From contig CATLBQ010000011.1 of assembly GCA_949879765.1 (NCBI GenBank), positions 1 to 52,350 on the forward strand: DNA of 52,350 bases, in the 5' to 3' direction. The notes under the pieces were generated by a model. That model did no database searches. It had not been told where the DNA came from and worked only from the letters and a program-made list of their open reading frames with translations. The position numbers were made by a program, and so were the translations under genes. The DNA comes from an uncultured Bacilli bacterium. GTDB lineage: Bacteria > Bacillota_I > Bacilli_A > ML615J-28 > CAG-313. Of this stretch, positions 36,557 through 52,350 are shown piece by piece; position 1 is the stretch's first letter, and every line of letters begins with the position of its first letter.

Positions 36557-37294
36557 TTATTTTAAAAATTCTGTTACCTTTTGATGGACAATCTGTCGAT
36601 AGGCTATTTTCGCATAACCATGTTCAGAACCATCAACTAAAATATATTCGCTATTTGGATATAAATCGTCATATCGTTTACTATACATCGGAGGTACTGC
36701 TTGGTCACAAGCACCTTGCATAATCAGTACTGGTTTAGTAAACGTTTCAATATCTTTATACATATCATATCCTTCAAACGATTTTTGAATAGCAATATTC
36801 ATATAATATCCTCCCATATCAATATTGCCATCTAAATTCATTTGGTTTTGTGCAAAACGCTTTTGAATAATTTCTGGAATATTTCCAGCTGGAGAAAGTA
36901 ATATCATTTTTTCTATCCGCTTTTGGACAAGCAAAGAAACTCTACTAGCAATAGCTCCACCCATTGAAAAGCCAAGCAAAATAATTGGTTTGCATTGATT
37001 CAATTGGTAGGCCTCTTCGATGATGGCTAGTCCATCATCTATTTCAGTGAATAACGTATAGTCCGCAAAATCACCATCGCTTTCTCCATTCCCCATAAAA
37101 TCATAACGCAAAGTAGCCATATGCTGCTCTACTAATGTTTTCGTCAATTGCTTAAATAAATAGCCATGCTCATTTTTATGTCCAGTAAAACCATGAAACA
37201 TGACAACGATTGTTTTGTACCCATCATCTGGTTTCGAAAACAAACCTCTTAGAGTGTATCCGTTGACTTTTAATGCTTTTTGTTCAATTATCAT
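36557..37294 (-). CDS. Alpha/beta hydrolase
   Basis: A 245-residue alpha/beta hydrolase. Oxyanion strand VVMFHGFTGHKNEHG is near residue 30, the nucleophile elbow GFSMGG near 105, the acid in MQGACDQAVPP and the His in DGSEHGYAK. The cinnamoyl-esterase/Est1E-like group has this layout. Its ATG overlaps the murQ stop (ATGA), so it is translated with the muropeptide genes. A role in removing ester groups (for example O-acetyl) from amino sugars is possible but unproven. Confidence 0.85.
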   Translation of the reverse strand: MIIEQKALKVNGYTLRGLFSKPDDGYKTIVVMFHGFTGHKNEHGYLFKQLTKTLVEQHMATLRYDFMGNGESDGDFADYTLFTEIDDGLAIIEEAYQLNQCKPIILLGFSMGGAIASRVSLLVQKRIEKMILLSPAGNIPEIIQKRFAQNQMNLDGNIDMGGYYMNIAIQKSFEGYDMYKDIETFTKPVLIMQGACDQAVPPMYSKRYDDLYPNSEYILVDGSEHGYAKIAYRQIVHQKVTEFLK

Positions 37295-38214
37295 TTTTGA
37301 TGTCCTCTTTGTTCTACAGAAGAAATTGCCCTTCGAATATTTCCGTTATTTTCAAATAATAACTGTCGTATTTCCTCTTCATTTTCAATATTTGTCAGAT
37401 AAGATAGAATCACACCTTTAACACTTTGATAGCGATTCAAAGCCTCTTTTGCTTTTGATTCATCATATCCTGTTACTTCCTTTATCATAGATAACAGTCT
37501 TGCAACTAATTTTTGATTGGTAGGCTGTAAATCCACCATCAAGTTTTCATATACTTTGCCTAACCGAATCATTGAACTGGTTGTAATCATATTACAAATT
37601 AATTTTTGAGCTGTTCCTGACTTCATTCTTGTAGAACCTGTTATGGGTTCTGGTCCCGTAATTGCCTCAATGGGATAATCCACAATATTTGCTAACTTGC
37701 TTTTTGAAGCGGTCGTGATACAACCTGTTTTACAACCTATTTGTTTGGCATAACGCACACCTGATATGACATATGGCGTTCTTCCACTTGCTGCAATACC
37801 CACAACAAAATCATTTGGCGTAATTCGTATACTATCTAAATCTAATTTAGATAGTTCTTCAGAATCTTCTGCCCCTTCTACAGCATGAATTAAAGCCTCT
37901 TTTCCGCCCGCAATCAATCCTATCACCATATTCTCATCTACACCATATGTAGGAGGACATTCTGATGCATCTAAAACACCTAATCTACCAGACGTCCCTG
38001 CCCCCATATAAATCAATCTTCCGCCACACTGGAAAGTGGGCACTAGTGCATCAACTAAATTGGCAATCTGCGGAATGGCTTGTTCTATGACAAAAGGAAT
38101 TGTTTTGTCTTCATTGTTGATTTTCTTTAGTATTTCTTTTGTTGAAACTTGATCGATATCCATTGTATTTGGATTTCTTGTTTCGGTTGTGATTTGTTTT
38201 AAATTTACTTGCAT
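37291..38214 (-). CDS. murQ: N-acetylmuramic acid 6-phosphate etherase
   Basis: A 307-residue SIS-domain protein of normal MurQ size. TETRNPNTMDIDQVST is near the start, IYMGAGTSGRLGVLDASECPPTYG (about 68-91) the SIS core, and ITGPEPITGSTRMKSGTAQK the catalytic region. It cleaves the lactyl ether of MurNAc-6-phosphate to GlcNAc-6-phosphate and D-lactate in the cytoplasm. It overlaps anmK by 10 bases at the start and the hydrolase by 4 at the end. AAGGAGAAGAT, inside the end of anmK, is the ribosome-binding site. Confidence 0.95.
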   Translation of the reverse strand: MQVNLKQITTETRNPNTMDIDQVSTKEILKKINNEDKTIPFVIEQAIPQIANLVDALVPTFQCGGRLIYMGAGTSGRLGVLDASECPPTYGVDENMVIGLIAGGKEALIHAVEGAEDSEELSKLDLDSIRITPNDFVVGIAASGRTPYVISGVRYAKQIGCKTGCITTASKSKLANIVDYPIEAITGPEPITGSTRMKSGTAQKLICNMITTSSMIRLGKVYENLMVDLQPTNQKLVARLLSMIKEVTGYDESKAKEALNRYQSVKGVILSYLTNIENEEEIRQLLFENNGNIRRAISSVEQRGHQK

Positions 38215-39347
38215 ATCTTCTCCTTACAAGGTGGATAAGTAATATTTCCTAAGACAACAGACTGCTTTGCACCAGTCACACTTTTCACATTTGAAGGTTT
38301 CTGTAATACCGTCATATGACCAAGAATAGCAAATCCAAATGCTTCATATGCATCTGTCCTATCTTCCACGATGACAGGTATACCTAATTTTTGTTTTAAT
38401 AAATTTAGAATAAATTCATTATGTGCCCCACCCCCTGAAACAATTAATTCATCAATGGGTCCTAAAAAACGCTGATATTGATCTATGATGGAATATGCGG
38501 TAAAGGCTGTAAGCGTTGCAATGATGTCTTGATTCCTCTGATCTAATTTTCTCATTTTTTCTATAACCTCATTGAGATAGGCATCATTGTATTTTTCTCT
38601 TCCTGTGCTTTTAGGGTAGCATTCTTGAAAATAGGCATCATTCAACAATTCTTGCAATATGCCTTGATGAATCATTCCACTTTTGGCAATTTTACCTCCA
38701 CAATCAAAAGGAAGTTGATATAGTTTTTGCATTGCCGCATCAATCAGCATATTTCCAGGACCTGTATCAAAAGCAATCACATCCTCTAGCGTTCCATTTC
38801 GTTTCAAGTAACATACATTGCCAATTCCACCAATATTTTGTAGAGCAATATGTTTTGTTTTACTTTGATAAAGTAGATAATTGACAAATGGAATCAGTGG
38901 TGCTCCACTTCCTCCTGCTGCCATATCCATTGTTCTAAAATTACTAATTACCATTTTATTAAAACGATAAGCCAAAATGCTTGGATCACCAATTTGTAGC
39001 GTAGATGAAGCATACCCATCCATATGATTAGGATTATGCCAAATGGTCTGACCATGCATTGAAATATAAGAGACGTCTTCCATATTCAAATGATATTCTT
39101 GAGCAAAGTCTGAAAGAGCCTCCGCATAAGCCTCACTGATTTCTACATTTAAACTACAAATTTTTTGTACATTAGAGGTTGATAAGTTGCTAACCTCTTG
39201 AATGTTGTGAACCAATTTTTGGGTATATGGGTATGTATGAAAAGCAAGAATTGTATAGTCAAACATTTCACCTTGTTCAACTATATCGACTAAACAAATA
39301 TCTATACCATCCAATGATGTTCCACTCATTATTCCAATTGATTTCAT
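38205..39347 (-). CDS. anmK: 1,6-anhydro-N-acetylmuramic acid kinase
   Basis: A 380-residue ASKHA-fold kinase. GIMSGTSLDGIDICLVD is the N-terminal phosphate loop, then SMHGQTIWHNP, DTGPGNMLIDAAM and VSGGGAHNEFILN. AnmK opens the anhydro ring while phosphorylating, giving MurNAc-6-phosphate for MurQ. AnhydroMurNAc comes from lytic transglycosylases, so this cell can use products of its own or foreign transglycosylases. It starts 2 bases after the BadF-type kinase gene. Confidence 0.93.
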   Translation of the reverse strand: MKSIGIMSGTSLDGIDICLVDIVEQGEMFDYTILAFHTYPYTQKLVHNIQEVSNLSTSNVQKICSLNVEISEAYAEALSDFAQEYHLNMEDVSYISMHGQTIWHNPNHMDGYASSTLQIGDPSILAYRFNKMVISNFRTMDMAAGGSGAPLIPFVNYLLYQSKTKHIALQNIGGIGNVCYLKRNGTLEDVIAFDTGPGNMLIDAAMQKLYQLPFDCGGKIAKSGMIHQGILQELLNDAYFQECYPKSTGREKYNDAYLNEVIEKMRKLDQRNQDIIATLTAFTAYSIIDQYQRFLGPIDELIVSGGGAHNEFILNLLKQKLGIPVIVEDRTDAYEAFGFAILGHMTVLQKPSNVKSVTGAKQSVVLGNITYPPCKEKICK

Positions 39348-39349
39348 TT

Positions 39350-40276
39350 TTATCCCATCCTATTCTGTTTCATATGACGACACGCTCTTTTATAAACGCC
39401 AATCATTTGGTCGCTTGTGTTCTCCTCAAATGTTAGTTCAATCTTTTTTTGTTTAACATAGTCATGAATTCCTTTTATAATATATTCGCCTTCATGTTCT
39501 AAAAATCCACCACGCAATCCAATTTTGGTTTTGGGTGGCATAGATAGCCATTGCATTAAATGTTCAATTTGCTTTCCTAATGATATTCCTTGCATATATA
39601 GTAATGTCTTCGCATGCAAATCACCTTTTTGTGCACAAGATTTGATATATACACTCCATTTGGCAATGTCATCTTTTGTATGTTGATAGAACAAATGATT
39701 CAAATCTCTGATTTCTCTAAAACCTAGTGTTTCTAAAAAACCTTTTTCTAATGAATCTAATTCCTTTCTAGATTCATATTTATCAATCATCTCAATTGCT
39801 AAGTCATGAACAATAGCATATGCACTTCCAGATTCCCTAATCAAATGTCCCCAACCACCAATCAAATGGCTTTTTCCATTGTGTTCACCATATATAGCAA
39901 CACCAGTTCCTGATATGACTACTATTCCACTTGCATCCTCTTCTTCTATAACTGAATATAATGCTGTTACAGTATCACTCGTAATTTCACATTGTGTCTG
40001 ATACTTTGTTGCAAAAAAATCATCAATTTCTCTATGAGATGATAGTGCACTAATACCAGAAACCCCCATTTCGATATACTCAATCTCTATTTGTTCTGTA
40101 GATAATTTAGACAATGTCAATTCAATGGTATCATCAATATGCTTATACCATTGGTGTACATCTACAGCAGGAGAACCAGATTGACCAACTCCTTTTGTAA
40201 GTAGTCTCCCTTTTTGATCAAAAATGGCAACTTTGGTTGTGCTGCCACCCGCATCTACACATATACATACTTTCAT
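39350..40276 (-). CDS. N-acetylglucosamine/N-acetylmuramic acid kinase (BadF/BadG type)
   Basis: A 308-residue BadF/BadG/BcrA-type ATPase. ICVDAGGSTTKVAIFD is at residues 4-19, VVISGTGVAIYG near 125 and IGGWGHLIRESGSAYAI near 140, the pattern of bacterial NagK/MurK kinases. By family it phosphorylates GlcNAc and/or MurNAc at O6. Clostridial MurK uses both sugars, which would fit a cluster without a visible MurNAc PTS. It starts 3 bases after mupG. The final C-terminal residues are basic and His-rich (RACRHMKQNRMG). Confidence 0.85.
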   Translation of the reverse strand: MKVCICVDAGGSTTKVAIFDQKGRLLTKGVGQSGSPAVDVHQWYKHIDDTIELTLSKLSTEQIEIEYIEMGVSGISALSSHREIDDFFATKYQTQCEITSDTVTALYSVIEEEDASGIVVISGTGVAIYGEHNGKSHLIGGWGHLIRESGSAYAIVHDLAIEMIDKYESRKELDSLEKGFLETLGFREIRDLNHLFYQHTKDDIAKWSVYIKSCAQKGDLHAKTLLYMQGISLGKQIEHLMQWLSMPPKTKIGLRGGFLEHEGEYIIKGIHDYVKQKKIELTFEENTSDQMIGVYKRACRHMKQNRMG

Positions 40277-40279
40277 ATC

Positions 40280-41320
40280 TTACCTATCACTTATGATAAA
40301 TGCAAATGGCTTCTGTTTTTGAATTTCATCTAAAATGATGGGACTCATCTCTATATGCCCCACTACGTTAACTCGTTCATCTTTTGGCAAAGGTTGAAGA
40401 ACTAGATTGATTTCCCCTCGATAACGAAGAAAATCTTGGTTATCAATGGTAATATCTCCCCTCTTTCTATCTATCGTTTGGAAAGGAGGGAATGACATAC
40501 AATTCCCGTGAGCAGAAATACGCAGTAGTCTATCATTAAAATCAGGACGAATCCGGTATACCCCTTTTAAATAATCTCGATAAAGCACAGGTAATTCTGT
40601 ATTCAACTGAATGGGAAGTAAAATCGTTTCAATTTGGTGCAGAATTAGTTGCTTTAATTCTTTATCGCTTGCATAAGCATCTCCAAAATAAATTTCATCT
40701 ATTCCAATGGCTTTCAATTCTTCAATGGCACTATCTAAAGAACAAAAACGATGATCTTCTATACTTGGTAATCCTTGATATAATGGAGGTCTGTGCCCTA
40801 CTTTTGAGGGAAGAAACGCTCCAACTGATATTCCATATTGATGATAATATGCAGTTCGTTCTTTACAAAATGGTAAGCTATGTCCTGTATAAGGTTTAGG
40901 ATAATAATTGAAACTCACTCGAACTCTTTTGGGATTTAATCCTTTTTCCATAAGGTCTTCAAACCTACGATTAGAAAGCGTTGATGCATTGAGTTCAATG
41001 AAAAAAGGAGCATTTTGCGATAATTGAACAATGTCATCATCCGTAAATCCATAATCCAATCGTAAGGCATATAAATTTTCTAAATGGTCCATTTTGTCAT
41101 ATGCAGGTTTTGAAATATCTAAAGATAATTTCATTCCCAATTGATTCGCTTTTTCCAAGCACACTTGTAAGTCCTGATAGCTTCTATTGGCTTCTTGGAT
41201 ATGTGCTGAAGAAAAAAGCATTTCTATTCCATTCTCTTTAGCTCTTTCTATATAAGCCAAATTATCTTCTAAATTATAATCTTTCAATCCATTAAAAATG
41301 GAGATGCCCGCCTTGTACAT
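40280..41320 (-). CDS. mupG: 6-phospho-N-acetylmuramidase MupG-like (DUF871)
   Basis: A 346-residue DUF871 protein: an N-terminal TIM-barrel-like domain (MYKAGISIFNGLKDYNLED, FSSAHIQEAN, VRVSFNYYPKPYTGHS) and a C-terminal beta domain from about 235. MupG of Staphylococcus aureus hydrolyses MurNAc-6-phosphate-beta-1,4-GlcNAc in the cytoplasm. Its presence implies that a phosphorylated disaccharide is made here, either by an unseen PTS or by one of the kinases. It lies 11 bases after namZ. Confidence 0.85.
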   Translation of the reverse strand: MYKAGISIFNGLKDYNLEDNLAYIERAKENGIEMLFSSAHIQEANRSYQDLQVCLEKANQLGMKLSLDISKPAYDKMDHLENLYALRLDYGFTDDDIVQLSQNAPFFIELNASTLSNRRFEDLMEKGLNPKRVRVSFNYYPKPYTGHSLPFCKERTAYYHQYGISVGAFLPSKVGHRPPLYQGLPSIEDHRFCSLDSAIEELKAIGIDEIYFGDAYASDKELKQLILHQIETILLPIQLNTELPVLYRDYLKGVYRIRPDFNDRLLRISAHGNCMSFPPFQTIDRKRGDITIDNQDFLRYRGEINLVLQPLPKDERVNVVGHIEMSPIILDEIQKQKPFAFIISDR

Positions 41321-41331
41321 AAAATCCCTGC

Positions 41332-42498
41332 TTAAAATGAATAAATATAATATTTTTGGCCCAAAGCTTTAAAAGCTTTCGAATCGTTTTCAAGACGACG
41401 AATTTGTTCATCTAGTGGTACGCTATTTTCAATAATATCATCCGTACCTGCTTCAAACTGAAATAATCCAGGTCGTCCTTCCACATATGGTTTATTAATT
41501 TGAAAATATTGTGGATAAGTAGTACGAATGTGATATAACATAGTCCAACTTGTTTTCACTGCTTCAAATGTATTGCGATCTGTAATATGTACATAAACTC
41601 CACCACACAATTCCCCTACATATTTTGAAAAAGTAGGCGTAAAATATTGTGGTCTAAAATACACTCCAGGTAATTGATAACTATTCAATTCTTTTGCCAA
41701 TTTCTCGGATTTCAACCATGGTGCACCAATGAGTTCAAATGGGGTTGTTGTTCCTCTTCCTTCTGCTACATTTGTTCCTTCGAAAATACATGTTGCATTA
41801 TACACATATGCGGTTTGAACGGTTGGAAGATTAGGGGTAGGAATAACCCATGGTAAACCTGTATCCTCAAAATCCATATTTCTTGTATAATTCTTCATAG
41901 GAATAACGGTTAATCTACAATGTATCCCATATTCTTCATTGAACAATTGAGCCAGTTCTCCCATTGTCATGCCATGGCGTTGTGCAATTGGATAATATCC
42001 AACAAATGAGCGGTATTTCTCAATATTAATGGTATTGCCTTCCACCTTTGCGCAATTGATTGGATTTGGTCTGTCAAAGACAACAAATTCTTTATCATAT
42101 TCTGCACATGCTTGCATACAATACGCCATTGTATAAATGAAAGTATAATATCTTGATCCACAATCTTGAATGTCAATAGACATAATGTCTACTTTATCCA
42201 TTACTTCTTTAGATGGTTTTTTCGATGCACCATAGAGACTATATACAGTAATGCCTGTTTCTTCATCCACATAAGTTTCTAAATGTTGTCCAGCTTGAAT
42301 GCTTGCTCGAACTCCATGTTCTGGTGAAAATAAGCCTACTAAATTGGTCTTTTCTTGCAAAATATCGATTGAAGATGTAAAATTTCCATCAATGCCAGTT
42401 GGATTGGTAATCAATCCAACTCGTTTTCCAACAAATATATCTTTAAATTCATCAATTCTTTCAATTCCTAAAATGGTTCTTTTCTTTTGACTATTCAT
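41332..42498 (-). CDS. namZ: Exo-beta-N-acetylmuramidase NamZ (DUF1343), cytoplasmic form
   Basis: A 388-residue DUF1343 protein. VGLITNPTGID, LFSPEHGVRASIQAG (near residue 55), DIQDCGSRYYTF, FDRPNPI and FEGTNVAEGRGT are family hallmarks. NamZ of Bacillus subtilis (YbbC) removes terminal MurNAc from muropeptides and is secreted; this copy begins MNSQKKRTILGIERID with no signal peptide, so it should act inside the cell. Its ATG overlaps the yesL stop by 8 bases (ATGAATAG). Confidence 0.9.
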   Translation of the reverse strand: MNSQKKRTILGIERIDEFKDIFVGKRVGLITNPTGIDGNFTSSIDILQEKTNLVGLFSPEHGVRASIQAGQHLETYVDEETGITVYSLYGASKKPSKEVMDKVDIMSIDIQDCGSRYYTFIYTMAYCMQACAEYDKEFVVFDRPNPINCAKVEGNTINIEKYRSFVGYYPIAQRHGMTMGELAQLFNEEYGIHCRLTVIPMKNYTRNMDFEDTGLPWVIPTPNLPTVQTAYVYNATCIFEGTNVAEGRGTTTPFELIGAPWLKSEKLAKELNSYQLPGVYFRPQYFTPTFSKYVGELCGGVYVHITDRNTFEAVKTSWTMLYHIRTTYPQYFQINKPYVEGRPGLFQFEAGTDDIIENSVPLDEQIRRLENDSKAFKALGQKYYIYSF

Positions 42499-43186
42499 CT
42501 TCTAACTCCTCCTCGATTTTTTTTGATATTTTATCGAAATCAACTGTTTCAAATTGATAATATATTGGTCTTGTTGCTTTAGTGATTAAAAATATCGGTA
42601 GTGAAATGCCAATAATCATCCATACAGCAAGTAATCCTGGTATAGCAATACACATCATTAATGAACCTACAATAACGCCAAAAGTAATCATCATTGCTAT
42701 GGTTGTAAGTATATAGCGAAATGCCATATAAAAGGATGTCTTTACAATGTCAATTATCCGTAGTTTGGGTAATATGATTATCAAATATGGAATATGTACA
42801 ACTGAAAATAAAAAGATAATCAAGCATACAACCATTGCCACAAATCCCGCTTGTGCAATCCATTCCATCGAACTTTGATAAAATTCTTGAAAAATCCAAA
42901 AAAAGAAAGCATAAATGATGATTGTAAAAATGAGTAATAAACCTATTCCTAGCAAAAATGATTTTACAAAATATTGTTTTACATTTCTAAAATATGCCCC
43001 AATAATATTCCCTTTATTTAAATCATTACGAATGGTTGCAATACATGCAACAAGCATAGGAAATATTGTAATAATCGGTATAGATAAAATAATAGTTGAA
43101 AAGTTGATGACTAATAATTTATATAACAAATCAAAAAAGCCAGTCGTTTTTGATGAATATTTCTTATCGCTGTCTTCTATTCTCAT
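42491..43186 (-). CDS. yesL: YesL/DUF624 membrane protein
   Basis: A 231-residue protein with about five membrane helices (from about 20 on) and the DUF624 pattern, including the amphipathic ending FETVDFDKISKKIEEE. DUF624 proteins are regularly encoded with carbohydrate ABC transporters, though their role is not established. I start it at ATG 43186, 6 bases after AGGAGG; an upstream frame to 43303 would cross the terminator of the preceding gene and is rejected. It is the first gene of the ten-gene run. Confidence 0.85.
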   Translation of the reverse strand: MRIEDSDKKYSSKTTGFFDLLYKLLVINFSTIILSIPIITIFPMLVACIATIRNDLNKGNIIGAYFRNVKQYFVKSFLLGIGLLLIFTIIIYAFFFWIFQEFYQSSMEWIAQAGFVAMVVCLIIFLFSVVHIPYLIIILPKLRIIDIVKTSFYMAFRYILTTIAMMITFGVIVGSLMMCIAIPGLLAVWMIIGISLPIFLITKATRPIYYQFETVDFDKISKKIEEELEDE

Positions 43187-43202
43187 GTTCATCCTCCTTT
43201 TT

Positions 43203-43240
43203 CGTAAGCGCTCACATTTTATTATATATATATTATAACA
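43203..43240 (-). promoter_or_regulatory. Promoter and LacI/CcpA-type operator of the muropeptide/lactate operon
   Basis: Minus strand: extended -10 TGT-TATAAT (TATAAT at 43232-43237; no good -35). The operator TGTGAGCGCTTACG (43203-43216) lies downstream of the expected start and just before the yesL ribosome-binding site. A repressor bound here would act as a roadblock or cover the start. Confidence 0.65.
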
Positions 43241-43278
43241 TAAAATCCTTTTTTCGTGTTGCATAAAGAAAAGAAAAA

Positions 43279-43303
43279 GTGATTCACTATTATAGTGAAT
43301 CAC
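43279..43303 (-). terminator. Terminator of the sugar-binding lipoprotein unit
   Basis: Perfect 11-base stem GTGATTCACTA/TAGTGAATCAC (43279-43289 / 43293-43303), loop TTA, T-rich tail on the minus strand. It separates the binding-protein unit from the yesL operon. Confidence 0.9.
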
Positions 43304-43325: not shown

Positions 43326-45560
43326 TTATACTAAGTAACCCATATTTCTCATTGCCTCACGATATTTTCCTAAAATTGAATTTAATTCAGTAGCAGGAGA
43401 AACATCTGATTTTCTGCAAATATTAGGAATGACAATCCATAAAGCATCAGGCCCAAAGTGAGAACCACCACCAACGCTCATACTTAATAATTCAGCTAAT
43501 TCGAAGTAAGTTCTACCTTCAGTTGACATAATAACATCTGCATATAGTGTGTTATCAAATTTAGTAATTAACCAGTTTCTATATGATTCTTCAGCAGATA
43601 AAACTACTTTATCTGGATCGTTTCCAAGGCCACTATATAAATCATACATAATCGCAAATAAAATTTTATTTGTGATACCATTTTTACCATTTTGAGTATC
43701 AATAATAGAATAACATGAAGTACTTCCATAAGGTACTTGGAAAGTTGAATTGTTTAAATCTAAACCACTGATATAATCACCTGTTTCAGAATCTACTAAT
43801 GGTTGTTCATTAGAAAGAATTGCATTTTCACGTTTACTTGTAGTGATTGTTGTACCACCTTGACCATCAGCAGTTGGATAAGGTACACAACCAATTTCAA
43901 AATCACAAACACCAAAACGTGTAGTATCCCCTAAGAACCAAAGATCACCATGATGGAATACAGATTGACCTGCTGCAAATGAAGTAGCAACATCAGAAAC
44001 ACCACGAGTACCATCATATAAATTACTAGTTGTTAATCTTTGAATAGCACTGAATCTGTTCAATGTACTTGTTGAAGTCAAATTCAACATTGGTGGAATC
44101 ATACCATCACCAGGAGTAGCAATTGAACCACCTGTTGATGCCACTGAACCAATTAAGAATTCAGGATATCCCATAGCCAATGCTTTGTACTCATTACCTT
44201 TTGCAGCCAATTTAGTTTGAAGTTCATTTGCATAACTTTCAAATGTAGACCAAGTCCATTGTCCTTTGAACCATAGTTCAGCAGGATTTTCCATACCCAT
44301 TTCTTCGATTAAGTTAGCATTGAAATACATAAAGTAGTCTGGATGTACACTTCCTTGAATATATCCGTATACTTTATTTCCAGATGAAGTAACTTGATTA
44401 TTTGTCATATCTTGATGATATGTATGATTTGTACCATCCCATTCACCAGGTTTAACTTCTTCATAACCGATTTCAGCAAAAATACCTGTTTGAGACGCCA
44501 TATCATATAATTCAGCTAAACAATTTGCACCAACTAAAGTTGGAATCCATGAAGATGCAATATTGATAATATATTGGTCTTTACTTTGTAATTCTCCATT
44601 AGGACCTTTATCTTTAATATATTTTACACGGTCAGGTCCCCAAGGTGCTGAGTTATCCCAATCTTGATATTCAATTTGAATTTGATAATTTTTCTCTACT
44701 TCTCTTTCTTGTTGTTGTCTAATTCTTTGATCACTAGCAGTATATCCATCATCAAATGGATCATAAGAAGATTTTGGAAGTACAAGAATAACCACTTTCA
44801 TATTTCTTCCTTGCCATCCACCAACTTGTTGAGCAGGCGTCCATAATGGTTTATATTCTTTTGAGGAACTTTGTTTCCATGTTGCAACTAATGTAATATT
44901 TTCATTAATTGCTTGATTTTGATTAAATGGTTCTCCATTTAATGTCCATCCTTCGAAAGTATATCCTGTCTTAGTAGGCGTTGCTGGCAATGTTAATTTA
45001 TCGCCTTTTTTAAGAGTAACTGGAGTAATGTTATTACCACCATCTGTATTAAATGTTACAGTTACTGTTTCTACACCTGATTGTGCTTTCCATTCAGCAG
45101 TAAGTGTAATATTCGCAGTTACTGCAGCATTAAAATCATAGTCTGCGCCATTTAATTTCCAACCAACAAAATCATATCCACTTTTTGTAGGGTCAGCTGG
45201 TTTTTGCACCTTTTCATTTGCATTTACTTTTACTGGATTAATTGTACTACCACCGGCAGTATTAAATGTTACAGTATAACTAGTTGGTGCATTTGCTTCC
45301 CATTTTGCTTTTAGAGTGATATTCTCTGAAATGGCAGTACCAAAATTAAATTGTGTACCATCTTTTTCCCAACAAACGAAAGTATATCCGTCTTTTGTTG
45401 GATTAGCTGGTTTTTTAGCATATTCACCTTTTTTCACTTCTTGCGTTTCTACGCTAGATCCACCATTGCTATCAAAAGTAACTTTAAACTTTTTTGAGCA
45501 ACTTGTTAGAGTAAAAAGAGTAAATAAAGCAATTACTAGAATAAAAAATCTTCTCTTCAT
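43326..45560 (-). CDS. ABC sugar-binding lipoprotein fused to three InlB B-repeats
   Basis: A 744-residue lipoprotein (Cys21 in TLTSC). Three Listeria-Bacteroides repeats fill about residues 24-232 (DGYTFVCWEKDG, SGYDFVGWKLNG, TGYTFEGWTLNG). From about 250 there is an extracellular solute-binding, family 1-like domain (MKVVILVLPKSSYDPFDDGY, INIASSWIPTLVGANCLAELYD, YFNANLIEEMGMENPAELW). Classic binding proteins lack such repeats, which may lift the binding domain off the membrane or bind the wall. No permease genes are nearby. Given the neighbours, a GlcNAc/MurNAc-containing ligand is plausible. It starts 3 bases after the GNAT gene stop. Confidence 0.85.
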   Translation of the reverse strand: MKRRFFILVIALFTLFTLTSCSKKFKVTFDSNGGSSVETQEVKKGEYAKKPANPTKDGYTFVCWEKDGTQFNFGTAISENITLKAKWEANAPTSYTVTFNTAGGSTINPVKVNANEKVQKPADPTKSGYDFVGWKLNGADYDFNAAVTANITLTAEWKAQSGVETVTVTFNTDGGNNITPVTLKKGDKLTLPATPTKTGYTFEGWTLNGEPFNQNQAINENITLVATWKQSSSKEYKPLWTPAQQVGGWQGRNMKVVILVLPKSSYDPFDDGYTASDQRIRQQQEREVEKNYQIQIEYQDWDNSAPWGPDRVKYIKDKGPNGELQSKDQYIINIASSWIPTLVGANCLAELYDMASQTGIFAEIGYEEVKPGEWDGTNHTYHQDMTNNQVTSSGNKVYGYIQGSVHPDYFMYFNANLIEEMGMENPAELWFKGQWTWSTFESYANELQTKLAAKGNEYKALAMGYPEFLIGSVASTGGSIATPGDGMIPPMLNLTSTSTLNRFSAIQRLTTSNLYDGTRGVSDVATSFAAGQSVFHHGDLWFLGDTTRFGVCDFEIGCVPYPTADGQGGTTITTSKRENAILSNEQPLVDSETGDYISGLDLNNSTFQVPYGSTSCYSIIDTQNGKNGITNKILFAIMYDLYSGLGNDPDKVVLSAEESYRNWLITKFDNTLYADVIMSTEGRTYFELAELLSMSVGGGSHFGPDALWIVIPNICRKSDVSPATELNSILGKYREAMRNMGYLV

Positions 45561-46585: not shown

Positions 46586-49500
46586 CTAGTGTCTTTTTCT
46601 TAATACTACTGCTAATAATGCAGCGGCACCAGCGATTTCAAGAACTAATAATGCACCACTTCCACAGCCTTTTTTAGTTCTAGATAAAATTGTATCAACA
46701 TTGCCACCAATAGTACCAACTTCAGCTTTAAGTTCATCAGCTACTTTCTTAACTGATTGAACTTCATCTTTAGTTGCAGCATTGTTCATCAAATTAGCTA
46801 ATTTTTCTAATTCTTCTTTGATATCACTAACTGATTGGTTAACTTTTGCTACTTCATCAAATAAATCTCCAATTTGACTATTTAAATTACCAATAGATTC
46901 TTGTAAACTTCCAAAGCTGTCATCCAGATCACTTGGTACATATTTATTAGCAATAATAGTTAATTGAAATGTACCAGAAGTTGTATTACCTGCTCTATCT
47001 CTCGCAGTAACTGTTATCATATGCTTATAGTTTTGACCTGGAGTACTAATATTATCTGTATCAATAGTTTTACTTGATTGATATACAGCTTGAAGATCAG
47101 AGATTTCTAATAAATTACCATCTACTGCATCATATGCATAAACAACTGCGTCTAAAGCATTAAAGTCATCACCTTGAAGAACTGTCATATTACGAAGTTT
47201 TAATAAAGGAGCAGTCATATCACGAACTTCAATTTGGAAAGTTGTAGTTGCTTTCTTAGTATGTGCATTATTCCAAATTGTAGCAACAACAGTATGAACA
47301 CCTTCTTTAGGATTATTCCAATCTAAAGTTGTATCAAATTCAATATTTTGAGAAATATCATTACCTAATAATTCAACACCATTGTATTGTGCATCATATG
47401 CTTTAACAATTGAATATATATCAATTGGTGCAATAGATAATGCATCACCTACTTTTGTAGGGAAATATAACAATTTATTTTTGTCCACTTTAATTACAGG
47501 TGTATAAGAATCAACAACAACATATTTAATAGTTAATGAACTTGAAATATTTGTACTAGAATTATAAACTCTATAATTCATTACCCAATTTTCGCCAGGA
47601 TATGATTTAGATGCATCAATAATAACATCATTCCATTTGTCAAGATTAGATCTAGTGTCCATCCATTCAATATTGTGATCATCTTGGAAATTCATACCAA
47701 AATATCCATGTTGTTGACCATTTAAGAAATACCAGAATGCATATGCAATTGTTTGTGGTGAATCACAATAATAATTTGTAGCCGCAGTTTTAACCTTGTC
47801 TAAACTTGCAGTATAAGTATCACCACCAGGGTATGCTAACATTGTTTGATAAATTTTTTCGATTAACCAACCCCATTTTTCTTTATTTGCAGGAATGTTC
47901 CAGAATGAAGGCATTTCTTCAGATGGATAATCAGGTTTTGCAGCATTATCTGCATTAGTAGCAAAGAATTGTCCCCAAGAGAAATTAGATTGGAAATTAG
48001 CTGCTGTATCAAACTTAATTTCAGATACATCTACGCCTTTCCAAGCAGCAATATCAGCTAAGAAATCTGTTTTAATATCCTCCATTGAAGTATAATCATT
48101 TGTTTTTTCAACAAGAGTTAAGGCAGCACCACCATTTTTAGATGATGTGATATAGAACTCTAAACTATCATCAGAAGATGTATAAGATGTAAGATCGTCT
48201 TCTACACTCCAATATCTCTTAACACCATTATAGTTGATATTTTGAGTAGGCTTATATACATCACCAGCCATAATCTCAACAACATTTTGACCCTCTAATA
48301 GTTTATATGTTGTATCGTTAATTACTTTTTCATCAAAAGAAATGTCTGTAACAGAGAAACTATAAGTTCTTTGTTCACCCATACCAATTAATGTTTCAGT
48401 TTGATTACCTTCTCTATCAACTTTATTGAATTCTTTACGTCCATATAAGTAACCATAAATAACAGTTTCATTAAAGAATTTATCGTTTGTAACTTTTCCT
48501 TTATCTAAGAAACCATAGTCAAATACATATCCACCAGCAGGAATTCTAACTGTAGCAACACAAGTACGTACAGATGAATTTGCAATTTGTGTTGCTTCTT
48601 CTTCTGTCTTACCTTGACCAATCAATGTTTGTTTATACGCATTAACTTGATCACCTTTTACATTACAAGTGTTATCAGCAGAACCAACAAATGCAATACA
48701 CATATATCCACCATCTTGTTCGTAGCAGTAATCCCAAAGATTTGGATCCCAACCAGCAGAAAGATAAGGAACTGTATTTACATTTTCAGGTTTAGTTGTG
48801 AAATATTCCCAAACAAATCTTGAATAAACAAGTCTATCCTTGTCAGTTTCAACCATAATAGGATTGCCATCTTCATCTAATACAGCATTTCCTTCTTCAT
48901 CAAGTTGTTGTTGCATTTCTTTATCGCAAGTAACACCTTCTGCAATCTTAGTTACAACACCATTAGAATAACAATATTCAGGAGCAAATTTAAATGTACC
49001 TTCTGCAGCTGTATAAACATCATCTAATGCAATACCACGAATCAATTGACCATTAGCATTGAAAATCATTGAACGATTGTAATAGTTTGTACCTTCATCA
49101 CCTAATCCCATTTGAGTTGGATTAAATTCAATATCTACACCAGAAATATTTGTTCTCATATGTGATAGTGATGGGTCAGATGCTTGACCTCCTTTAGCGG
49201 CTAAAATACCATCAGACATCTTTACAGCAACAATTTTTTTGTTACCATTTTCATCTAAAACAGGGATTCTTTCACCATTTTCATCTAAAAGGTATTTTGT
49301 TCCTGCTTCATTTCTTTGATATTCATAATCATAGAATAAGATATTTTTACCAGCACCGATAACAAAATCACCATTACTTTCAACAGCTACAGTGTGTCCT
49401 GAGAAATAAACTGCGTAATATTTACCAGTTGGATTTCCGTTTTCATCAAATTGCGCAACTCTTAGTCTAGTTTCATTCCAAGGATACATTCTTGAAGGAC

Positions 49501-49714
49501 CAGACCAATTATTATCAGGCTCAGCTTCATTATCATAATAATTTGGGAAAGTAGTATAAATACTATCCATGATATAAACAGGGATTTCATCCGCTGCTAA
49601 TGTTGGGTCTTTTGTAATTTTACCTGCAGCATGAGCAGGAGTGTTTACAGCAAAAACGCCAACGAATGCAATTGTGAGTAACATTGTACTCAAAAAAGCA
49701 AAAACTTTTTTCAT
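46586..49714 (-). CDS. Large surface protein with C-terminal KKGC-TM-RKR anchor
   Basis: A 1042-residue protein with a signal peptide ending near AHAAG (about residue 30). About 800 residues of unfamiliar extracytoplasmic sequence follow, with DENGNP-type turns. Ig-like domains lie at about 750-925 (HTVVATIWNNAHTKKATTTF, MTAPLLKLRNMTVLQGDDF, ITVTARDRAGNTTSGTFQL). A predicted coiled coil spans about 930-1005 (NLNSQIGDLFDEVAKVNQSV). The C-terminus is TKKGCGSG, a hydrophobic segment and RKRH. The tripartite end resembles a sorting signal but has no LPxTG. Catalytic function unknown. Promoter and two operators lie upstream. Confidence 0.85.
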   Translation of the reverse strand: MKKVFAFLSTMLLTIAFVGVFAVNTPAHAAGKITKDPTLAADEIPVYIMDSIYTTFPNYYDNEAEPDNNWSGPSRMYPWNETRLRVAQFDENGNPTGKYYAVYFSGHTVAVESNGDFVIGAGKNILFYDYEYQRNEAGTKYLLDENGERIPVLDENGNKKIVAVKMSDGILAAKGGQASDPSLSHMRTNISGVDIEFNPTQMGLGDEGTNYYNRSMIFNANGQLIRGIALDDVYTAAEGTFKFAPEYCYSNGVVTKIAEGVTCDKEMQQQLDEEGNAVLDEDGNPIMVETDKDRLVYSRFVWEYFTTKPENVNTVPYLSAGWDPNLWDYCYEQDGGYMCIAFVGSADNTCNVKGDQVNAYKQTLIGQGKTEEEATQIANSSVRTCVATVRIPAGGYVFDYGFLDKGKVTNDKFFNETVIYGYLYGRKEFNKVDREGNQTETLIGMGEQRTYSFSVTDISFDEKVINDTTYKLLEGQNVVEIMAGDVYKPTQNINYNGVKRYWSVEDDLTSYTSSDDSLEFYITSSKNGGAALTLVEKTNDYTSMEDIKTDFLADIAAWKGVDVSEIKFDTAANFQSNFSWGQFFATNADNAAKPDYPSEEMPSFWNIPANKEKWGWLIEKIYQTMLAYPGGDTYTASLDKVKTAATNYYCDSPQTIAYAFWYFLNGQQHGYFGMNFQDDHNIEWMDTRSNLDKWNDVIIDASKSYPGENWVMNYRVYNSSTNISSSLTIKYVVVDSYTPVIKVDKNKLLYFPTKVGDALSIAPIDIYSIVKAYDAQYNGVELLGNDISQNIEFDTTLDWNNPKEGVHTVVATIWNNAHTKKATTTFQIEVRDMTAPLLKLRNMTVLQGDDFNALDAVVYAYDAVDGNLLEISDLQAVYQSSKTIDTDNISTPGQNYKHMITVTARDRAGNTTSGTFQLTIIANKYVPSDLDDSFGSLQESIGNLNSQIGDLFDEVAKVNQSVSDIKEELEKLANLMNNAATKDEVQSVKKVADELKAEVGTIGGNVDTILSRTKKGCGSGALLVLEIAGAAALLAVVLRKRH

Positions 49715-49903: not shown

Positions 49904-50626
49904 TTACATTTTTGAATAAGCATCTTGATCAATAATTACAGTTACATCAGGATGATTGTTCAAAATAGAAGCCGGAAAATCTGGTGTTATTTCTCCACTC
50001 AATAATTTTACAACAGCATCTGCTTTACTTGTACCACTAATGAGCATCAAAATCTTTTTAGCTTGCATAATATTTTGAATTCCCATTGTAATTGCATGGG
50101 TAGGCACTTCATCAATAGATTGAAAAAATCGTTTATTATCCTGTCTAGTTTTTTCAGTCAATTCTACAATAAATGTTTCTTGAGTAAATGGAGTTCCTGG
50201 CTCATTAAATCCAATATGCCCATTTCCACCAATTCCTAACAACTGTAAATCAATACTTGCCTCATGTAACATATCATTGTATTTCTTACAATCCTCATCA
50301 AGGCTATCATTCGATACTGCTGGAATATGCACATTTTCTTCACGGACATCTACATGATTGAATAGATTATCATGCATAAAGTAGTAGTAACTTTGAGGAT
50401 GACTTCTACTAATTCCACAATATTCATCCAAATTATAGGTTTTTACATCTTTGAATGAAATCTCTTTATTTTCATATGCTTTTACCAAGTTTTGATAAGT
50501 CCCTATTGGGCTACTTCCGGTAGCTAACCCTAGTGTACAAGATGGATTGGCTTTAATTGTATTAGCAATTATTTCCGCACCTAAATCACTCATTGCTTGA
50601 TAATCTTTTACTACAATAACTTTCAT
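49904..50626 (-). CDS. nagB: Glucosamine-6-phosphate deaminase
   Basis: A 240-residue NagB. GLATGSSPIGTYQNLVKAY (about 33-51), TYNLDEYCGISRSHPQSYYY (catalytic Asp) and LLGIGGNGHIGFNEPGTPF are the family motifs. It converts glucosamine-6-phosphate to fructose-6-phosphate and ammonia, the last step from MurNAc/GlcNAc to glycolysis; nagA is not in the window. ATG 50626 has AGAGG upstream; a longer frame to 50686 would overlap nagZ and is rejected. Confidence 0.95.
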   Translation of the reverse strand: MKVIVVKDYQAMSDLGAEIIANTIKANPSCTLGLATGSSPIGTYQNLVKAYENKEISFKDVKTYNLDEYCGISRSHPQSYYYFMHDNLFNHVDVREENVHIPAVSNDSLDEDCKKYNDMLHEASIDLQLLGIGGNGHIGFNEPGTPFTQETFIVELTEKTRQDNKRFFQSIDEVPTHAITMGIQNIMQAKKILMLISGTSKADAVVKLLSGEITPDFPASILNNHPDVTVIIDQDAYSKM

Positions 50627-50642
50627 TTTAAATACCTCTTTT

Positions 50643-52202
50643 CTATTGAATGCTAACTGGTAAAACACCTTTAGCCTCAATTTCACCAGTTAGATATTTG
50701 GCAAGTGCTTTAAAACTAAGTACGCTTGCCTCATAACTACATACATATGTTGGAACATTTAGAACATTAATATCATAAGGAGTTCTAACTGCAACGACAA
50801 CTATTTTTTGTTTATCAATTTGATTAATTAAATCTGCCTGTGAGGGATTAAAGTTGGCATTATAACTACAATATACAACTTTATCATATTTATTTACTTT
50901 TTCAAGTAATTCTATTTGTTCATCTTCTGTTGGTTGAATTGAAATATAATGCTTATCTACAGAAAATGGCATATAGTCTGCTAAACAGCTTAGTGTATTA
51001 TCGTCATTTTCTACTAAAGTAACTACTTTAATTTTTGGAAAAACAACCAATATTTTTTCATTTTTACAAAGTGGCAATAAATTTTTGTCATTTCTAACAA
51101 GCGTTAGCGCATCTTCAGCAACTTGTTCAGCAAATTCCATTCTTTGTGGTTCTTCTAAATCACCTTGAATATCTTCAAATGTATTAGCCATTTCACCTAC
51201 ATTATACATTTCTTTATATTTCATGATTCTTTCAACTGAAGCATCAATCATCTCCATTGGTATTTTACCTTCTTCTGCAAGACGTAAAGCAGTGTTGGCA
51301 AATTCCTTTTGCATTTCAATATTTCTAGCCCCACACAATAAGAGGATATCACATCCTGAATTAAATCCATTATAAACAATTTCTTCTAAACTGAAATTAT
51401 CAAATACAGCGGACATCGTCAAAGAATCTGTTACTACTAATCCTTTAAATCCCATTTCTTCTCGCAAAAGTCCCGTAATAATTTTTTTAGATAATGTTGT
51501 TGGATATGTATCATCATATTTTGTATACAATACATGACTTGCCATTATTCCTGGCAAATCTAAATCAATTACTCTTTGAAATGGAACAAGTTCCATTTGA
51601 TCCAAACGACTTTTATCAAAATCAACAACTGGTAATCCCACATGTGAATCTACTGCCGTGTCTCCATGGCCTGGAAAATGTTTGACTGATGTCATTAATC
51701 CCGCCTCATGATATCCTTTGATTGCTTCTACCATATAATCTGCAACCATATGAGGATCTTCGGAATAAGAGCGAACATTGATTACTGGATTCTTCGCATT
51801 GTTATTGACATCTCCTACTGGTGCAAAATTAAAATTAAATCCCAAGTGTCTCAATTCAATTCCCATATTCTTAGCGAGTTGATAAGCATTTTCTTTTTTC
51901 TTTGTTGCCCCTATCGCCATTGCTCCAGGTGATTGAACAATCCCCTCTGTCACTCTTGCTACCATCCCACCCTCTTGATCAATCGCAATAAATGGGGGAA
52001 TTTTAGCTTGTTGATTAATGGTTTTATTCAAATCAAATATTTGCTTTGGTGTAACACAATTATCTTTAAAATAAATGATCAAGCCGGCCTCTATGTCTTC
52101 AACTTGCATTTTTAACTCTGGACTATAACTATCTCCTGAAAAAGCAAGTCCTATCATTTGACCCACTTTTTCTTTCAAAGTCATATCTTGAACTTTTTTC
52201 AT
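50643..52202 (-). CDS. nagZ: Beta-N-acetylglucosaminidase NagZ (GH3), cytoplasmic form
   Basis: A 519-residue GH3 enzyme. FIAIDQEGGMVARV, MTSVKHFPGHGDTAVDSHVG (the His/Asp loop that assists catalysis in NagZ) near residue 170, and GLVVTDSLTMSAV with the Asp nucleophile near 255 are present. A C-terminal Rossmann-like domain follows from about 345, as in Gram-positive NagZ. It removes terminal GlcNAc from muropeptides. No signal peptide is seen, unlike the secreted Bacillus subtilis enzyme. The start is 6 bases after the stop of a surface-protein gene, with AAAAGG about 9 bases upstream. Confidence 0.93.
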   Translation of the reverse strand: MKKVQDMTLKEKVGQMIGLAFSGDSYSPELKMQVEDIEAGLIIYFKDNCVTPKQIFDLNKTINQQAKIPPFIAIDQEGGMVARVTEGIVQSPGAMAIGATKKKENAYQLAKNMGIELRHLGFNFNFAPVGDVNNNAKNPVINVRSYSEDPHMVADYMVEAIKGYHEAGLMTSVKHFPGHGDTAVDSHVGLPVVDFDKSRLDQMELVPFQRVIDLDLPGIMASHVLYTKYDDTYPTTLSKKIITGLLREEMGFKGLVVTDSLTMSAVFDNFSLEEIVYNGFNSGCDILLLCGARNIEMQKEFANTALRLAEEGKIPMEMIDASVERIMKYKEMYNVGEMANTFEDIQGDLEEPQRMEFAEQVAEDALTLVRNDKNLLPLCKNEKILVVFPKIKVVTLVENDDNTLSCLADYMPFSVDKHYISIQPTEDEQIELLEKVNKYDKVVYCSYNANFNPSQADLINQIDKQKIVVVAVRTPYDINVLNVPTYVCSYEASVLSFKALAKYLTGEIEAKGVLPVSIQ

Positions 52203-52208
52203 AAATCA

Positions 52209-52350
52209 TTACCTTTTCTTTCTCAGTATCATCAAGGTTGTTATAAGTGCTAGGATACTTGCTATCAGTGTCATGGCACTGGCTTTCTTACATCCTTTCT
52301 TTGGTTCTCCTACGGTTGTTCCACAGACTGTACATGTTTTGGGTTCTTTC
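52209..52350 (-). CDS. C-terminal end of a surface protein with KKGC-TM-RKKR anchor (5' part outside window)
   Basis: An open minus-strand frame enters at the window edge and stops at TAA 52209-52211; 46 residues are seen. They comprise a Cys-pair module (CTVCGTTVGEP), KKGCKK, a hydrophobic segment of about 20 residues (MTLIASILALITTLMIL) and RKKR. The ending matches that of the large surface protein at 46586. It is co-transcribed with nagZ, 6 bases downstream, so it may be a surface muropeptide-related protein. Confidence 0.75.
   Translation of the reverse strand, partial: KEPKTCTVCGTTVGEPKKGCKKASAMTLIASILALITTLMILRKKR

Follow-up and report, generated by a model that had tools for sequence, protein, structure and literature searches.

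A putative cysteine-containing C-terminal surface tag in Anaeroplasma and relatives of its order

Exported proteins of Anaeroplasma and of relatives in the same order appear to share a lineage-specific tag at the C-terminus, in which a cysteine is followed by a hydrophobic helix and a basic end, and comparison of the encoded proteins supports such a tag well. We suggest that it may be a modular sorting or anchoring signal combining Sec export, arrest at the helix, putative lipidation of the cysteine, and putative cleavage by a CPBP protease, a reading to which we give slightly less than an even chance. The export-type N-terminus, the anatomy of the tail, its conservation, modularity, and lineage, and the presence or absence of candidate enzymes were read from sequences, and from these we infer the modification, the cleavage, and the enzyme. 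The tag offers a concrete and testable answer to how surface proteins could be retained in an order in whose 39 genomes no sortase was detected. An earlier note on this DNA had raised the idea of a lineage-specific anchoring system, and this idea has gained support: the tag occurs on several unrelated exported proteins, mainly in one order, and this order has no detected sortase.

Two tails of one design in the window

The window, which is the whole stretch of DNA analysed (52,350 bases), is the entire contig C11 of a 1.48 Mb Anaeroplasma genome that we call G000. From its open reading frame and from an orthologue search and alignment, the gene at 46586-49714 on the reverse strand, as are all window features given below, is predicted to encode a putatively exported, tag-bearing surface protein 1042 aa long. 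This protein ends in TKKGCGSGALLVLEIAGAAALLAVVLRKRH, that is, KKGC followed by a helix and RKRH. Its N-terminus (residues 1-30, MKKVFAFLS...AHAA; 49625-49714) resembles a signal peptide and the hydrophobic start is kept among 10 orthologues. Residues from about 928 to 1011 (46682-46933) are predicted, from weak sub-cut-off Pfam matches and a very low-confidence structure model (mean pLDDT 29 for the protein), to form a helical, coiled-coil-like stalk that is poorly conserved. The KKGC signature (46664-46675; Cys codon 46664-46666) is followed by the hydrophobic helix ALLVLEIAGAAALLAVVL (46601-46654), which has a hydropathy of 2.65 over 17 residues, and the translation then closes with the basic end RKRH (46589-46600), which would be cytoplasmic in the topology proposed here.

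Relatives of this protein were found in 12 of 12 genomes of one family of the order (f1) and in none of the 27 others of the order (E ≤ 1e-5). A copy that is 88% identical lies on JAMPAL010000003.1, from an Anaeroplasma bactoclasticum MAG. The cysteine is invariant in the 10 orthologues that were aligned and the stalk ahead of it is variable. Eleven orthologues were read at the C-terminus, the copy in G009 running off its locus, and the cysteine is present in 10 of them; the orthologue from G007 has the helix and a KKK end and no cysteine.

A second tail lies at the edge of the window, where the last 46 codons of a tagged protein (52209-52349) are cut by the contig end (52350). This frame ends in KKGCKKASAMTLIASILALITTLMILRKKR and contains a CxxC repeat unit, KTCTVCGTTVGEP, followed by KKGCKK (KKGC at 52290-52301; Cys codon 52290-52292), a helix, and RKKR. 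The earlier note had described two surface proteins that share a KKGC-helix-basic end and lack LPxTG. Both translations have this shared end and neither contains an LPXTG motif; as for the two surface proteins, the first is encoded whole, whereas the second is represented in the window by its last 46 residues only.

Contigs C9, C11, and C22 terminate in near-identical paralogous tails. Because these paralogues are all contig-terminal and so alike, the two window tails belong to two protein families. Three frames predicted to encode NAGPA (phosphodiester glycosidase, PF09992) are present in G000, on contigs C22, C10, and C25, and all of them run off contig ends. The C22 frame terminates in ADCTHAKTCTRCNET and the tail fragment on C9 starts with the same residues, followed by KKGC, while the C10 and C25 frames break off before that CxxC repeat. 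On the simplest reading, which joins these fragments by comparison rather than by assembly, the second tail probably belongs to a NAGPA phosphodiester glycosidase, with the assembly broken by the CxxC repeats.

The cysteine is the conserved element of the tail

A search of the G000 genome for the KKGC codon pattern gave 31 matches, versus 15 in a backward-read control. Reading 30 of these 31 loci gave exactly five C-terminal tails with a cysteine, a helix, and a basic end (contigs C4, C9, C11 twice, and C22). A five-tail profile had matches in 20 of 40 relatives (E ≤ 10), and a 21-tail profile matched 114 places in 26 of 39 genomes of the order (E ≤ 1). We read 80 tails drawn from these 114 places and from relative and class-wide searches; this sample consists mainly of long open frames, most contig-edge fragments and near-duplicates having been left out, and 67 tails remain after dropping those that are at least 60% identical.

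The cysteine is the sole invariant column across these tails (80/80), a count that is partly circular since the tails were found with cysteine-bearing profiles. The residue preceding it is G in 52 tails, K in 20, and another residue in eight. KKG is not invariant, and the invariant element is the cysteine rather than the KKGC motif; of the invariant Gly-Cys pair that had been claimed, the cysteine stands and the glycine does not. The cysteine is followed by 24 to 31 residues (median 26). The longest uncharged run in the tail spans 19 residues at the median, and all 80 tails finish with a net positive charge. When 46 diverse tagged proteins were aligned, the cysteine was one of just two columns with at least 90% conservation. 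A rough scripted criterion gave 72 of the 80 proteins a signal-like start; of the remaining eight, three are incomplete at the 5' end. The tail cysteine is the only cysteine after residue 25 in seven of the 80 proteins, which argues against an intramolecular disulfide.

Two selections were free of cysteine-bearing profiles: the orthologues of the window protein described above and proteins with a NAGPA domain. In the first NAGPA set, 25 of 30 loci had a readable C-terminus (11 from family f1 and 14 from a second family of the order, f2). All 11 of the readable f1 proteins end in a cysteine, a helix, and basic residues. A helix with a basic end was found in none of the 14 readable f2 proteins, among which L319 is moderately hydrophobic. 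Twenty further f1 NAGPA loci gave 13 readable C-termini, every one of them tagged, with six loci running off the contig and one masked. When pooled, 24 of 24 readable f1 NAGPA C-termini are tagged (31 loci inspected of 53 places), the 24 proteins being paralogues rather than independent events.

A filter for type I membrane proteins, applied to stretches of several genomes, one stretch being partly masked, returned eight proteins, five with the cysteine and three without, and lends the tag no support. The five all come from stretches with known hits, namely one picked from G005, contig C11 of G015, and the window. None of the three proteins from stretches without a known hit has the cysteine; one of these is a clean case and two are poor calls. 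The clean case is a 2485-aa protein encoded on contig C1 of G000 (107622-115079, forward strand; L159), and cysteine-less C-terminal anchors do exist in the sampled genomes. This 2485-aa protein has an N-terminal lipobox as well as its cysteine-less C-terminal helix and basic end; such ordinary anchoring at both ends contrasts with the tag.

Unrelated ectodomains carry the same tail

Single-linkage clustering of the ectodomains (E < 1e-8) divided the 80 tagged proteins into nine clusters, the largest with 54 members. Pfam searches with 46 representatives matched Metallophos and Pur_ac_phosph_N in 17 each, GHL10 in nine, Flg_new and Big_2 in eight each, PUD in six, NAGPA in five, and alpha-amylase in two, with LRR and others besides. 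The tagged ectodomains include metallophosphatase, GHL10, NAGPA, pullulanase, LRR, and InlB-repeat types, and the tag is also found on proteins with short proline-rich or Ig-like ends. Judged by these matches, the tag is modular, with one kind of tail on unrelated ectodomains.

Distribution of the tag, sortase, and rhomboid proteases

A profile of KKGC-TM-RKR tails, as the earlier note had envisaged, does trace the tag through the genome and its relatives: by reading, it is present in 25 of 39 genomes of the order, comprising 12 of 12 from family f1 and 13 of 27 from family f2. The genomes are mostly fragmented with many short contigs, and taxonomic ranks are those assigned by the search tool. 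G027 is a possible extra case outside the 25 counted, with a tail of the form FSC-helix-RKRK. Weak in-order matches in G019, G039, and contig 7 of G006 had no such tail when read and were rejected as tagged loci.

We also searched a class sample of 394 genomes that are at least 90% complete with a 32-tail profile (E ≤ 0.01). This matched 21 of 27 genomes of the order versus nine of 367 others; as its training tails came from the order, divergent tags elsewhere could be missed. On reading, cysteine tails are present in only two of the nine out-of-order genomes, G157 and G175. The other matches were rejected: G275 reads TPNTG, G082 and G065 have no cysteine, three have stops inside the match, and G381 has no such tail. 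G175 and G157 (L218, L220) belong to family f22 of the same class and have APETGC-helix-ARRKEW tails; family f22 may be a second tag-bearing lineage.

Sortase (PF04203) was detected in 120 of the 394 class genomes, none of them from the order, and in neither G157 nor G175; it was found in none of the 39 genomes of the order and is not supported as the sorting enzyme there. The LPXTG anchor family had no match in the G000 genome. Rhomboid proteases were likewise above cut-off in none of the 39 genomes, with two sub-threshold matches, and were detected in all 14 control genomes; rhombosortase is not supported as the processing enzyme on this basis. A 2024 survey infers that sortase was lost in the ancestor of Acholeplasmatales, Izemoplasmatales, and ML615J-28, interprets its loss from RFN20 and ML615J-28 as a sign of fewer surface proteins, and reports that 40-60% of Anaeroplasmataceae genomes have peptidoglycan genes (PMC10868615).

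CPBP proteases as candidate processing enzymes

CPBP is the only one of the three sorting-type protease families tested that was found in the order, and it is tied to the tag by presence alone. Of the 39 genomes, 37 have it: 24 of the 25 tagged ones and 13 of the other 14. In one tagged genome, G029 (a 92% complete MAG), CPBP was not detected even with a query from the same genus, and the CPBP of G027 is a contig-edge fragment. Four contigs contain both a tag and a CPBP gene, at least 37 kb apart (114 tag places versus 66 CPBP places, many on short contigs). A look through 225 overlapping loci, most of which have flanks of 1.5 kb or less, showed no CPBP-like frame. The earlier note had looked to a dedicated protease, of rhomboid or CPBP type, distributed together with the tag; these results do not support one, given that rhomboid does not rise above cut-off and that CPBP occurs irrespective of the tag, and they do not refute the idea either.

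In a tree of the 66 CPBPs, 24 of the 27 f2 genomes contribute one copy each to a clade of 24 rows. A second, weaker clade of 14 rows has a single copy per f1 genome (12 in all) together with two f2 rows. Both of these core clades include untagged genomes and extra copies are scattered; CPBPs are mostly vertically inherited core copies. A tag-specific subfamily was rejected: no clade is both confined to tagged genomes and inclusive of them, in a tree with several weak forks and provisional tag labels (G006, G015, G035, and G038 still untagged). Tagged rows do cluster in this tree, requiring 15 changes versus a mean of 22.3 on shuffling (0 of 500 shuffles as low), and relatedness alone can be enough to account for this.

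The core CPBP of G000 (contig C1, 96372-96701, reverse strand) has the motifs EELIFRK, FAGIHV, and HFTNN. These fit the EExxxR and HxxxN motifs described for MrtX (PMC11980579). Ten of the 66 CPBPs were scanned with NCBIfam models and none reached the Mrt or myxosortase cut-offs. The best models, all below cut-off, were MroQ for five, ABC-permease/CPBP for two, LnsB for one, and MrtS for one, with none for the remaining protein. Separately, a divergent group of CPBP-like membrane proteins, marked by a CxxC-rich N-terminus, is found only in G000, G001, G005, G009, G010, and G012, all from family f1, and not in tagged f2 genomes. The G000 copy (L152, contig C21, 1468-2307, reverse strand; relatives L147-L151) is without EExxxR and has no Pfam match at 1e-5.

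In the sorting model proposed here, Sec would export the protein and the helix would stop it in the membrane with the basic end inside. The cysteine, which would lie just outside the membrane, may then be covalently modified, most likely with a lipid, and the helix may be cut off by an intramembrane protease, for which the core CPBP (a glutamic protease) is the likeliest candidate. By analogy with what has been proposed for MYXO-CTERM, a large enzyme or adhesin would be held on the surface by its C-terminal lipid.

The tail could also be a plain type I membrane anchor, with an uncut helix, a basic end, and a cysteine that either has a minor role (S-acylation or helix packing) or stems from duplication of the tail, and we regard this as distinctly possible, though not probable. 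A membrane helix suffices where a wall is absent. This explanation stays live because cysteine-less cases exist (the G007 orthologue with its helix and KKK end, and the 2485-aa protein of G000) and because no protease was found to be linked to the tag. However, a type I anchor needs no invariant cysteine at a nearly fixed spacing, and the cysteine is kept in all readable f1 NAGPA proteins and in all but one of the window-protein orthologues despite a freely changing stalk.

Relation to known C-terminal sorting signals

Anatomically the tag appears to resemble MYXO-CTERM but does not score as a member of it. MYXO-CTERM/MrtX shares with the tag an invariant-cysteine motif, a helix, a basic end, an N-terminal signal peptide, and its occurrence on unrelated hydrolases and adhesins (PMC11980579), and in both cases a CPBP glutamic protease is the enzyme or candidate enzyme for processing. 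By contrast, the tag belongs to another phylum with another envelope, in which an outer membrane and type II secretion are not expected, and the residues ahead of its cysteine are mostly KG, KK, or SG. The window tails are taken above cut-off by none of the NCBIfam models and give no match at all to those for MYXO-CTERM, and the 10 scanned CPBPs score below the myxosortase models. The earlier note had likened the tails to MYXO-CTERM and GlyGly-CTERM signals; the tripartite anatomy bears this out, whereas the curated models, when run on the window tails, do not, and the lack of a rhomboid above cut-off in the 39 genomes speaks against the rhombosortase version of the idea. In Myxococcus xanthus, the conserved cysteine is required for cleavage by myxosortase, and lipidation of the cysteine before cleavage is the authors' model rather than a demonstrated fact (PMC11980579).

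JDVT-CTERM/MrtJ is similar in having cysteine-containing tails with a CPBP partner (PMC11980579); MrtJ is described as adjoining its single target, unlike the CPBPs here, the nearest of which is 37 kb from a tag. Several core CPBPs here match the MrtJ and MrtS models weakly, and every score for these systems, of enzymes and of tails, is below cut-off. Synerg-CTERM tails also contain a cysteine and have the CPBP partner MrtS. GlyGly-CTERM/rhombosortase shares with the tag a tripartite C-terminal layout, but its tag is not known to contain a cysteine, and the 39 genomes here have no rhomboid above cut-off. In lipoproteins processed by Lgt and LspA the lipobox cysteine closes an N-terminal signal peptide, unlike the tag cysteine, which is near the C-terminus and before a helix.

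Among weak NCBIfam matches of the 80 tails (E ≤ 0.1), LPXTG_anchor was the commonest with 17 members (best 2e-7), followed by NPXTG with five, Heimdall-CTERM and JDVT-CTERM with four each, and MYXO-CTERM with two; TIGR03901 and TIGR03382 each match two tails. Ten tails, chosen rather than drawn at random, were rescanned singly with these short models, which cross-match. Five of the 10 passed the LPXTG_anchor cut-off of 15.9 bits (L297, 29.9; L303, 27.5; L311, 21.9; L304, 16.2; L293, 16.0). L293 also passed TIGR03382 (18.4 versus 15.85 bits) and failed TIGR03901 (18.9 versus 20), L298 failed both, and L303 and L309 just passed the GlyGly-CTERM model (16.2 and 15.9 versus 15.5 bits). In L297 and L303, the LPXTG motif is matched from its P onward by PETG or PATG, with the cysteine directly after. 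Of the 80 tails, five have PxTGC, the only such form seen among them.

These alignments suggest that the tag may descend from LPXTG. Like LPXTG/sortase substrates, tagged proteins are large surface proteins with a motif-helix-basic layout, and some keep PxTG before the cysteine; unlike them, they have an invariant cysteine, and the window tails have no LPXTG and the 39 genomes no sortase. It is conceivable, though we consider it unlikely, that ancestors of the order lost sortase, and in at least part of the order also the wall, and that LPXTG signals were rebuilt from LPxTG through PxTGC to KKGC, lipidated, and cut by a housekeeping CPBP. If so, a C-terminal lipoprotein system of the myxosortase type would have replaced sortase in descendants of Gram-positive bacteria, and the PETGC intermediate would still be living. 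The tails might instead be sortase signals that eroded after sortase was lost and that now serve for anchoring only, and the PxTGC tails, the LPXTG_anchor scores, and the lack of detected sortase all fit such fossils. We consider this improbable, as a fossil should not gain a new invariant residue, and the cysteine is present in every tail versus PxTG in five. An intermolecular disulfide that joins membrane-proximal stalks as dimers, for which the weakly predicted coiled-coil-like stalk right before the cysteine in the window protein and six of 80 tails with two cysteines in the tail region could be cited, is very improbable given that the tag is also found on the short proline-rich or Ig-like ends and that surface disulfides are unfavourable in a strict anaerobe such as Anaeroplasma.

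A literature search showed no description of the tag among the papers listed and no paper dealing with both Mollicutes and CTERM signals, and the tag shared by the nine ectodomain clusters looks like an unrecognised mode of surface anchoring. Were the sorting model correct, it would extend cysteine-type C-terminal sorting to this branch of Bacilli. Tails in such genomes that score as LPXTG may not be anchored to the wall by sortase, and the PxTGC tails are possible fossils of a shift between anchoring chemistries.

Genes neighbouring the tagged gene

A predicted set of muropeptide catabolism genes lies around the tagged gene (37291-42498 and 49904-52202, reverse strand) and comprises MurQ, AnmK, a NagK-like BadF kinase, MupG, NamZ, NagB, and a GH3 hexosaminidase-like enzyme. 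This suggests that peptidoglycan is eaten by this bacterium. The family of Anaeroplasma is usually described as wall-less. The gene at 43326-45560 (reverse strand) is predicted to encode a protein with a lipoprotein-like start (LTSCSKK) followed by three InlB B-repeats (Flg_new); the part after the repeats has no convincing family match and looks solute-binding. Between the sugar-catabolic genes and this InlB-repeat lipoprotein, at 42491-43303 (reverse strand), is a gene predicted to encode a DUF624 membrane protein.
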